The notes beneath the pieces were generated by a model. The model was given only the letters and a program-made list of their open reading frames with translations. It had not been told where the DNA came from and did not search any database. From the NCBI RefSeq assembly GCF_007050985.1, contig NZ_VHSF01000003.1:124001-188000 (forward strand): a stretch of DNA of 64,000 bases. The letters are read 5' to 3'. Position numbers and translations under genes: made by a program. Below, one piece after another: positions 32,749 through 35,284 of the stretch. Position 1 is the first letter of the stretch; each line of letters starts with the position of its first letter. This stretch comes from Christiangramia sabulilitoris (GTDB lineage Bacteria; Bacteroidota; Bacteroidia; Flavobacteriales; Flavobacteriaceae).

Positions 32749-34464
32749 ATGTTTGAAATTTCAGAATTAAAAGCTAAAAAGCTTCCTGAACTTAAGGAAA
32801 TCGCTGAGACCCTCAACGTTCCTAAGTACAAGACATTAAAAAAACTGGATTTGGTATATCAGATTCTGGACTACCAGGCATCAAATCCCAATAAAGTAAA
32901 GGAAGTGCTTACCGACGATAACCAGGAACAGGCTAAACCTACCCCAAAGAAAACAGCAAAACCAGATAGTGAAAAAAGACCATCAAGGTCTAAAGAAGCT
33001 TCTAAACCTGCACATTCCAAACCAACTTCTGGCGATTCTTCAAATACTCAAAAGGACGACACCAGAAAAAACCAGCCGGCAAAAAGCAGCAATAGAGACA
33101 GAAATCAGTCTGGTGGCAAAGACAACCGCGGAAGCCGAAATGATAACAGGAATGACAATCGCAACGATAACAGGAACGAAAATCGCAGCGATAACAGGAA
33201 CGACAGTCGCAGCGACAACAGGAATGATAAGCGCAACGATAATAGAAACGATAATCGTAATGATAACCGTAATGACAATCGTAGCGATAACAAAAAAAAT
33301 AATGGAAACCGCGATAACAGAAACCGCTATCGTGAGCCTGATTACGAATTCGACGCGATCATAGAAAGCGAAGGAGTTCTTGATATTATGCAGGACAACT
33401 ATGGTTTCTTAAGATCATCTGACTATAATTATCTTACGTCTCCAGATGACATCTACGTTTCCCAGTCTCAGATAAGACTATTCGGTTTGAAAACCGGAGA
33501 TACAGTACAGGGACAAATACGACCTCCTAAAGAAGGAGAGAAATATTTCCCGCTAATCAAGATCAATAAAATTAACGGACTCGACCCACAAGTGGTAAGA
33601 GACCGTGTTTCTTTTGAACACCTTACTCCTTTATTTCCTAAAGATAAATTCAACCTTGCCGAAAAGCAGAGTTCGATCTCTACAAGGGTAATGGATCTTT
33701 TTGCTCCTATAGGAAAAGGTCAGCGTGGAATGATCGTTTCGCAGCCTAAGACAGGTAAGACCATGTTGTTGAAAGACATCGCCAATGCAATCGCTGCAAA
33801 CCATCCTGAAGTTTACCAGATCGTACTTTTGATCGATGAAAGACCAGAGGAAGTTACCGATATGCAGCGTAATGTGAAAGGAGAAGTTGTTGCTTCAACT
33901 TTCGATAAAGAAGCTCACGAACATGTTAGAGTAGCAAATATTGTTCTGGAAAAAGCCAAGCGTTTGGTAGAGTGTGGTCACGATGTAGTGATCCTGCTTG
34001 ATTCTATCACCAGGCTGGCCAGGGCATACAACACAGTACAACCTGCCAGCGGTAAGGTATTAAGTGGTGGTGTGGACGCCAATGCTCTGCATAAACCTAA
34101 GAGATTCTTTGGTGCGGCCCGTAATATTGAAAATGGCGGTTCATTATCTATCATTGCTACGGCACTTACAGAGACCGGTTCCAAGATGGATGAAGTTATC
34201 TTTGAAGAATTTAAAGGTACAGGTAACATGGAGCTTCAGTTAGACAGAAGAATTTCCAATAGAAGAATCTTCCCTGCCATAGACCTTGTTTCTTCAAGTA
34301 CTCGTAGAGATGATCTTTTACTGGACGAGAATACAATACAGCGTATGTGGGTTCTAAGAAAATATCTTGCAGACATGAATCCCGTGGAAGCCATGGAATT
34401 TATCAACGATAAAATTAGAAACACCCGAAATAACGAAGAGTTTTTAATCTCTATGAACGGTTAA
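32749..34464 (+). CDS. rho: Transcription termination factor Rho with Asn/Asp/Arg-rich insertion
   Basis: A 571-residue hexameric RNA helicase ending transcription of untranslated RNA. Order: Rho_N helical domain (about 1-45, [20 protein letters not shown]), a long disordered linker (about 50-200), an RNA-binding cold-shock-like domain (about 203-275, [20 protein letters not shown]) and the RecA-like ATPase with [15 protein letters not shown] (Walker A), [16 protein letters not shown] (Walker B and Q-loop side) and the secondary site around [20 protein letters not shown]. The linker carries repeated RNDN units. E. coli Rho is 419 residues; the extra length is almost all linker, as in other Bacteroidota. 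A 190-bp leader precedes it and a strong terminator follows. Confidence 0.95.
33136..33300 (+). repeat. In-frame 12-bp degenerate repeats coding RNDN units in rho
   Basis: About thirteen degenerate 12-bp units in tandem encode (N/S)DNRNDNR-type sequence, roughly residues 130-183 of Rho. The codons for Arg, Asn and Asp vary (AGG, CGC, CGT; AAC, AAT; GAT, GAC), so the array is not a fresh slippage product: the peptide pattern is kept while the DNA has drifted. Confidence 0.85.
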
Positions 34465-34520: not shown

Positions 34521-34605
34521 ATGTTCAGACATCTCACTTCCCGGTGTATATTTACCCATTATCAACTCCTATCTGGACTGTTGAACAATTTAAGAACTAC
34601 AAACA

Positions 34606-35184
34606 GACTCATCTTTCGATGAAGCTTTTAGAGCGGGAGACAGGGTTCCCTTCGACTCTGCTCAGGACAGGCTTCTCACCCTGGATTATCTTTTTCACAA
34701 AATTTCATGCATAAAAAAAAGCCTCATCTTTTCGATGAAGCTTTTAGAGCGGGAGACCGGGTTCCCTTCGACCTTGCTCAGGACAGGCTTCTCACCCTGG
34801 ATTATCTTTTTCACAAAATTTCATACATAAAAAAAAAGCCTCATCTTTTCGATGAAGCTTTTAGAGCGGGAGACCGGGTTCCCTTCGACCCTGCTCAGGA
34901 CAGGCTTCTCACCCTCTATTATCTTTTTCACAAAATTTCATGCATAAAAAAAAGCCTCATCTTTTCGACGAAGCTTTTAGAGCGGGAGACCGGGTTCCCT
35001 TCGACCTTGCACAGGACAGGCTTCTCACCCTGGATTATCTTTTTCACAAAATTTCATACATAAAAAAAGCCTCATCTTTTCGATGAAGCTTTTAGAGCGG
35101 GAGACCGGGTTCCCTTCGACCTTGCTCAGGACAGGCTTCTCACCCTCTATTATCTTTTTCACAAAATTTCATGCATAAAAAAAA
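34606..35184 (-). repeat. Tandem array of five ~116-bp units copying the tRNA-Gly 3' end and terminator
   Basis: Units begin at 34606, 34721, 34838, 34954 and 35069 (115-117 bp each) and lead into the real tRNA-Gly at 35185. Read on the minus strand, each unit has an AT-rich spacer, a segment GAAGCCTGTCCTGAGC followed by AAGGTCGAAGGG, the last ~20 nt of the tRNA (AACCCGGTCTCCCGCTC), its downstream hairpin (GCCTCATC..GATGAAGC) and a T-run. So each unit repeats the tRNA 3' portion plus terminator but not the 5' half. Units differ at only a few positions; the oldest-looking is the distal one at 34606. No protein-coding signal is credible inside. Confidence 0.92.
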
Positions 35185-35205
35185 GCCTCATCTTTTCGAT
35201 GAAGC
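35185..35205 (-). terminator. Intrinsic terminator directly after tRNA-Gly
   Basis: The hairpin GCTTCATC-GAAAA-GATGAGGC with an eight-T run on the minus strand starts seven bases past the tRNA 3' end. The five array units carry further copies of it. Confidence 0.85.
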
Positions 35206-35211
35206 TTTTAG

Positions 35212-35284
35212 AGCGGGAGACCGGGTTCGAACCGGCGACATTCAGCTTGGAAGGCTGACGCTCTACCAACTGAGCTACTCCCGC
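35212..35284 (-). tRNA. tRNA-Gly (anticodon TCC)
   Basis: A complete 73-nt cloverleaf on the minus strand: acceptor GCGGGAG with CTCCCGC, D-arm GTAGCTCAGTTGGTAGAGC, anticodon stem TCAGC/GCTGA with loop CTTCCAA (TCC, reading GGA/GGG), and T-arm CCGGTTCGAACCCGG. No CCA is encoded; the discriminator is T(U). Confidence 0.96.

Follow-up and report, generated by a model that had tools for sequence, protein, structure and literature searches.

Downstream of the tRNA-Gly(TCC) gene of Christiangramia sabulilitoris, between a GNAT-like gene and rho, the 3' end of the tRNA is repeated several times in tandem. What are these repeated units, and how did they come to lie behind a tRNA gene that is itself intact? 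The window considered here is the whole stretch of 64,000 nucleotides that was analysed, and all coordinates without a contig label refer to it.

The intact tRNA-Gly(TCC) gene (35211-35284, minus strand) is followed on its 3' side by five tandem units of 115–117 bp (116, 115, 116, 117 and 116 bp) with pairwise identities of 94–98%, as counted in a draft assembly of 23 contigs in which the array is possibly collapsed. TRF reported a period of 116 bp with 5.4 copies and 94% matches, in agreement with a preliminary description of five copies of an approximately 116-bp unit, and also a higher-order (dimeric) period of 233 bp with 96% matches. Each unit contains a terminator, an AT-rich spacer, the arm GGGT, a 31-nt core (GAGAAGCCTGTCCTGAGCNNNGTCGAAGGGA) and tRNA nucleotides 59–74 (ACCCGGTCTCCCGCTC), hereafter the tail. 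The GGGT arm directly precedes the core and is complementary to tail nucleotides 59–62. The tail begins at 35226 in the gene itself and at 35110, 34995, 34879, 34762 and 34646 in its copies; an exact repeat of 15–16 nt, occurring five times in register, rules out chance. The 5' half of the tRNA is never copied, as had been recognised earlier. The copied piece was then estimated at about 20 nt; it actually comprises 16 nt from T-loop nucleotide 59, or 18 nt with the shared GA at nucleotides 57–58 included. Similarly, the array contains five terminator-like hairpins rather than six terminators in series, and the hairpin after the last tail has no T-run. The features of the locus are as follows.

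35211-35284, minus strand: intact tRNA-Gly(TCC), with its own nt 59–74 tail at 35211-35226
35181-35209, minus strand: terminator after the tRNA; its T-run extends below 35181
35142-35145, minus strand: inverted arm GGGT of unit 1, complementary to tail nt 59–62
35111-35141, minus strand: core of unit 1, GAGAAG...GTCGAAGGGA
35095-35110, minus strand: tail copy 1 (tRNA nt 59–74), with a terminator after it at 35065-35093
34996-35030, minus strand: arm and core of unit 2, CCTGTGC variant
34980-34995, minus strand: tail copy 2, with a terminator after it at 34950-34978
34880-34914, minus strand: arm and core of unit 3
34864-34879, minus strand: tail copy 3, with a terminator after it at 34834-34862
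34763-34797, minus strand: arm and core of unit 4
34747-34762, minus strand: tail copy 4, with a terminator after it at 34717-34745
34647-34681, minus strand: arm and core of unit 5
34631-34646, minus strand: tail copy 5 with one mismatch (ACCCTGTC); the distal tail, which would be the displaced native one if the units were inserted
34600-34630, minus strand: degenerate former terminator whose T-run is gone, probably the original native one

The unit contains no gene and hence encodes no integrase. A 118-aa open reading frame on the opposite strand (34707-35063, plus strand) spans the array repeats and is probably meaningless; tpr of E. coli is likewise a frame within the RtT repeats. In rho, a 12/24/36-bp tandem repeat (33142-33292, plus strand) encodes an Asn-Arg-Asp-rich stretch.

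The tails are not restricted to tRNA-Gly. Among the 42 tRNA genes of this genome, gathered by a family search, at least 12 are followed by tails (10 found by an automatic check, and two tRNA-Pro genes). The 31-nt core is present behind six of them: Gly (five copies), Asn (four), Thr (two), a second Thr (one), His (one) and Met (one). The tails of Leu-TAA, Ala-GGC, Cys, Pro and Phe carry another palindrome, similar to CCCGATGCTTCGGG, in the T-loop of a truncated tRNA copy. In this second type of tail, observed behind Leu, Cys, Ala and Pro (L051/L305, L302, L303, L304, L296), the truncated tRNA copy runs from the variable loop or T-stem and the palindrome takes the place of T-loop nucleotides 57–61. 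A third type of insert was seen behind tRNA-Gly of another genome (L024/L042, G009), where the hairpin GTCACGCCGAAAGCGTGA stands twice beside the acceptor tail.

When named genomes were scanned for the core by itself, free of any tRNA letters, at least 117 stretches emerged, mostly in Flavobacteriaceae but also in Pedobacter and candidate-phylum bacteria (Shapirobacteria tRNA-Pro, CPR2 tRNA-Ser, and Curtissbacteria). Among the matches listed, the core lies behind at least 15 tRNA species; 106 of the 137 have an intact same-strand tRNA at most 800 nt, mostly 12–72 nt, upstream of them, and the tail that comes after the core is that of this very tRNA. The other matches listed are mostly contig edges, tails with an uncalled tRNA, or hairpins outside tRNA loci. 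The distribution is patchy: in even samples, six genomes out of 396 from the order had the strict core, and five out of 380 from the candidate phylum had an 18-nt part of it. Tail units were also observed in ribosomal RNA operon spacers behind tRNA-Ile (L297 and L298 of G001; L299 and L300 of G224), where the copy number differs between operons of one genome. Searching the unit against the genome and its relatives, as had been proposed, uncovered copy-number variation; the array proved to be no one-off, the same core lying behind many other tRNAs.

The segment previously regarded as a short dispersed repeat is the inside of the conserved 31-nt core GAGAAGCCTGTCCTGAGCNNNGTCGAAGGGA; this core contains a hairpin that is also dispersed in the genome. 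This hairpin, TGTCA-NN-CTGAGCGSAGTCGAAG-N'N', occurs at non-tRNA places in the array's genome (G000) and its relatives (e.g. L101, L107-L110). It has a conserved loop and a freely varying stem; the two pairs beside the conserved inside covary, their pairing being 90 and 85%, as against 36 and 29% when dealt. For the dispersed non-tRNA copies, whose flanks are not conserved, no empty sites were found.

Comparison of 133 units reveals a common anatomy. The tail starts exactly two nucleotides (GA or AA) after GTCGAAGG, i.e. at tRNA nucleotide 59, in 129 of them. Before each core stands a short arm, the reverse complement of nucleotides 59–63 or more of its own tRNA, followed by GAGAAG. The arm pairs with nucleotides 59, 60, 61, 62 and 63 in 94, 78, 89, 76 and 71% of the units, respectively, and a G-U wobble adds 19–20% at nucleotide 60. 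In Shapirobacteria tRNA-Pro, 11 consecutive arm/tail pairs (GGATACTGGAT and ATCCAGTATCC) were seen by inspection. In 41 aligned units the arm/tail stem contains 45 double-changed cells versus 17.1 ± 5.3 after shuffling (a level reached in none of 500 shuffles), and the covariation score of 0.55 falls to at most 0.21 when the partner is slid. The duplex of an arm with its own tail has an energy of −8.7 kcal/mol, versus −6.3 kcal/mol with tails of other tRNAs. A copy of the 5' strand of the T-stem is insufficient to explain the arm, which pairs with T-loop nucleotides 59–60 and reaches the acceptor in Pro, His and Tyr.

The tandem repeats behind tyrT and tyrV of E. coli K-12 follow the same order, GGGGAAGGAT|GAGAAG...GAGTA|ATCCTTCCCC..., with a 10-nt arm complementary to nucleotides 59–68, then GAGAAG, and a tail from nucleotide 59. 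These 178-bp tyrT repeats contain the last 19 nt of the tRNA, hold tpr and produce the RtT RNA; they are, to our knowledge, a decades-old oddity that has been handled as one locus. The E. coli-type core was also found downstream of two further tRNAs. After tRNA-Pro (proK) of E. coli and Klebsiella, the arm AGAGGAT or GAGGAT is complementary to the Pro tail and precedes GAGAAC; after tRNA-Lys of Providencia, the arm is weaker and precedes GAGAAG (L344, L345, L346 and L343 for Pro and Lys together). The Rfam RtT model (RF00391) matched all enterobacterial loci tested (E. coli Tyr, Pro and Providencia Lys), which served as a positive control. It matched nothing in the window region, not even at E ≤ 10, and nothing in the Bacteroidota and candidate-phylum loci L035, L062, L067, L147, L149 and L231; above threshold, Rfam recognises the tRNA alone at the array. 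The kinship with RtT is therefore one of plan and not of sequence model.

Empty and filled sites were compared to follow the origin of the units. In E. coli AREA_505, the first tRNA-Tyr is followed by TCTCAAGCATTACC... and the next tRNA-Tyr, with no unit; in K-12, tRNA-Tyr is followed by an unrelated spacer, the arm, the core and the tail, and then by TCTCAAGCATTACC... The same pattern is found close to the array's genome. At tRNA-Thr of G004, the tRNA is followed by a new terminator and the tail by the terminator of G013, the closest relative of G004 by rho. In the array's genome (G000b), an operon tRNA-Thr has a unit with the native spacer after its tail, and the site is empty in five relatives (G006, G010, G016, G020 and G022). 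At the orthologous tRNA-Gly of G011, a foreign terminator of another type is proximal, and the native terminator, that of the sister G015 (rho identity 0.887), is distal, behind the displaced tail. The tRNA-Trp genes of G005 and G017 are filled in the same manner, as compared with the empty Trp locus of the array's genome. Plain tandem duplication of local sequence is therefore rejected as a full account, since foreign spacers precede intact native ones. In G011 and G015 (loci L004 and L013), a degenerate extra tRNA-Gly-like fragment was observed just upstream of the intact gene.

The units also turn over. Spacers within tandem arrays are nearly identical, which is what local amplification at a later stage would produce. 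In 22 arrays the last tail carries more mutations than the first, and in two arrays fewer (12 versus two, counted by hand, after tails with at least four mismatches were dropped), which fits entry adjacent to the tRNA. Across the genus, with about 20 genomes compared, the orthologous Gly locus holds from zero to five units and several decayed remnants; the recent origin assumed in the preliminary description agrees with this lack of a fixed copy number. In E. coli, 3,938 of 5,426 genomes retain 80% or more of the K-12 array stretch, and sampled genomes have zero to four RtT units. The variable copy number at the Gly locus and in E. coli indicates that the units are dispensable.

We propose that the Gly array arose by local amplification of a very small non-coding insertion unit, a 'tRNA-tail cassette' whose entry point in tRNA genes is the T-loop, a proposal to which we give about an even chance. 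The cassette would enter between nucleotides 58 and 59 and would consist of a replacement tRNA 3' end, running from nucleotide 59 as far as the gene encodes it, a spacer of its own that in many cases includes a terminator, an arm complementary to nucleotides 59–63 or more of that tRNA, GAGAA(G/C), and a palindromic core usually ending in A. The incoming tail would replace the old one, keeping the tRNA whole and working, and the native tail and its downstream sequence would be pushed away. From the arm/tail covariation, the equal pairing with or without an intervening terminator and the conserved GAGAA, we infer that a putative recombinase supplied in trans may join the ends on the folded arm-core-tail hairpin, this hairpin being the recognised or required form and probably a folded single strand. 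The five near-identical copies could have arisen from one or two insertions and unequal recombination between units, in the dimer pattern 1-2/3-4, and effects of five terminators in series on transcription would be by-products. The earlier proposal, a T-arm insertion followed by unequal crossing-over, or else repeated integration, finds some support in both halves: the first fits the near-identical units and the dimeric period, and the second the empty and filled sites in relatives and E. coli, where a spacer or terminator of its own arrives with the unit. The tRNA-specific inverted arm, GAGAAG, the other tRNA species and phyla and the plan shared with E. coli RtT had gone unnoticed.

Several observations speak against the cassette reading. 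The units have no linked recombinase: the array's genome encodes four tyrosine recombinases, none adjoining the tRNA-Gly array, and has no match to the Y1_Tnp transposase (PF01797), for which controls matched, so that transposition of the RAYT/REP kind is rejected. The core pattern had no match among IMG/VR viral contigs and the E. coli unit none among phage records, and phage-record matches to the Gly array are short and confined to the tRNA itself, which argues against a phage att site. The spacer of a unit is often similar to the trailer native to that tRNA (Gly, Thr), a likeness that local duplication would produce; arm pairing is poor or shifted in register in some cases (several Trp units, His L148); no circular or mobile form of a unit was seen; distal decay could also stem from gene conversion by the tRNA; and the reading leaves unaccounted how a shared core gains a new tail and a matching arm for each tRNA species. 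Reverse transcription of a mature tRNA halting at m1A58, after which the tails would start at 59, was rejected, since tails lack the unencoded CCA and spacers run past the terminator. The tRNA-Thr-Tyr-Gly-Thr-tuf operon, another holder of a tail unit, has a tyrosine recombinase gene (G000:C12:419648-420151) about 500 bp upstream of it.

Template switching would explain some of these features, and we consider it possible though rather improbable as a whole. A polymerase would stall at the tRNA and re-copy nucleotide 59 through the trailer, a dispersed palindrome would be captured at the junction, and the product would spread between species by homologous recombination and multiply by unequal crossing-over, with arms later improved by selection. 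The near-identical spacers of tandem arrays, the homologous spacers at the Gly locus, the core hairpin that is also dispersed elsewhere and the other palindromes (CCCGATGCTTCGGG) in the T-loop of other tails are all consistent with such a course; however, it does not lead one to expect the same 31-nt core and nucleotide-59 junction behind 15 tRNA species of different phyla, GAGAA adjoining the arm in enterobacteria too, or foreign spacers in units whose tail is followed by an intact native spacer.

A function at the RNA level, as claimed for E. coli RtT, appears unlikely. The tail hairpin RNA would be a decoy, terminator or processing signal, or the arm would hide the duplicate tail from the tRNA 5' half; retained G-U wobbles at nucleotide 60 (19–20% of units), the folding of the hairpin, the presence of units in transcribed operons (Trp-secE, Thr-Tyr-Gly-Thr-tuf, rRNA spacer) and the annotation of RtT as an sRNA point in this direction. 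However, pairing is as strong with a terminator between tRNA and tail (−8.87 kcal/mol) as without it (−8.58 kcal/mol), and the units are patchy and decay. The equal pairing and the many relatives without the array likewise leave the transcription road-block considered in the preliminary description unsupported. Scars of larger integrated elements (phages, ICEs), which would have used the tRNA as an att site and left att tails upon deletion, are very improbable: partial tRNA copies from integration are common (PMC9897764) and the stretch from nucleotide 59 to the tRNA end resembles the usual att identity block, but uniform units of 60–180 bp, a conserved core, an inverted arm and the viral and phage search results do not suit them.

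With the tRNA-tail cassette as the preferred reading, we tentatively suggest, as a broader and less probable step, that the Bacteroidota, candidate-phylum and enterobacterial (RtT) units belong to a single class of minimal mobile cassettes. These would be mobilised in trans via a folded hairpin that takes its outer stem from the target tRNA, so that one core could serve many tRNA species. The E. coli tyrT repeats become one example of a plan that recurs after at least 15 tRNA species, spread over several phyla, and that bears the signature of an arm complementary to nucleotide 59 onward, GAGAA, core and tail, and their origin and mover become testable by comparison and in E. coli K-12. This would possibly be a new way to insert DNA into tRNA genes without harm, and it calls for caution in annotating tRNA fragments and sRNAs behind tRNAs. 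As far as we can tell, the arm-GAGAA-core-tail plan across tRNA species and phyla is new; the literature searched for tRNA-tail repeats held no description of such a class.

Among known systems, REP/RAYT elements share with the tail units a dispersed genomic hairpin, present inside the tail-unit core, and differ in that the tail units are linked to a tRNA tail and their genome has no Y1 transposase. Integron attC arrays resemble them, by resemblance only, in their tandem non-autonomous units, the variable-length folded hairpin with complementary outer arms, and the placement of new units beside a fixed end with older ones distal. In contrast to attC, the tail units have a conserved inside and outer arms that are specific to the tRNA; they carry no ORF, and no linked IntI was found, none of the genome's four tyrosine recombinases lying next to the array. 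Integrative elements of the T-loop tRNA-att class share the T-loop junction, a carried-in replacement 3' end and a displaced native tail, and the identity block from the T-loop to the 3' end is present in the tail units, which differ in being about 60–180 bp long, non-coding and tandem, with an inverted arm. RtT differs in its core (about 90 nt versus 31 nt in the Gly-type units) and in unrelated core sequence and spacers, and far more tRNA species carry units in Flavobacteriaceae than in RtT hosts. Otherwise RtT corresponds to the Gly array in plan: tandem units stand after an intact tRNA, each ending in a 3' tail from nucleotide 59; the arm is reverse-complementary to nucleotide 59 onward and stands immediately before GAGAAG or GAGAAC, a feature recognised in this analysis rather than drawn from the literature, and a palindromic core comes next; and both vary in copy number between strains and occur behind other tRNAs, in the case of RtT Pro and Lys.
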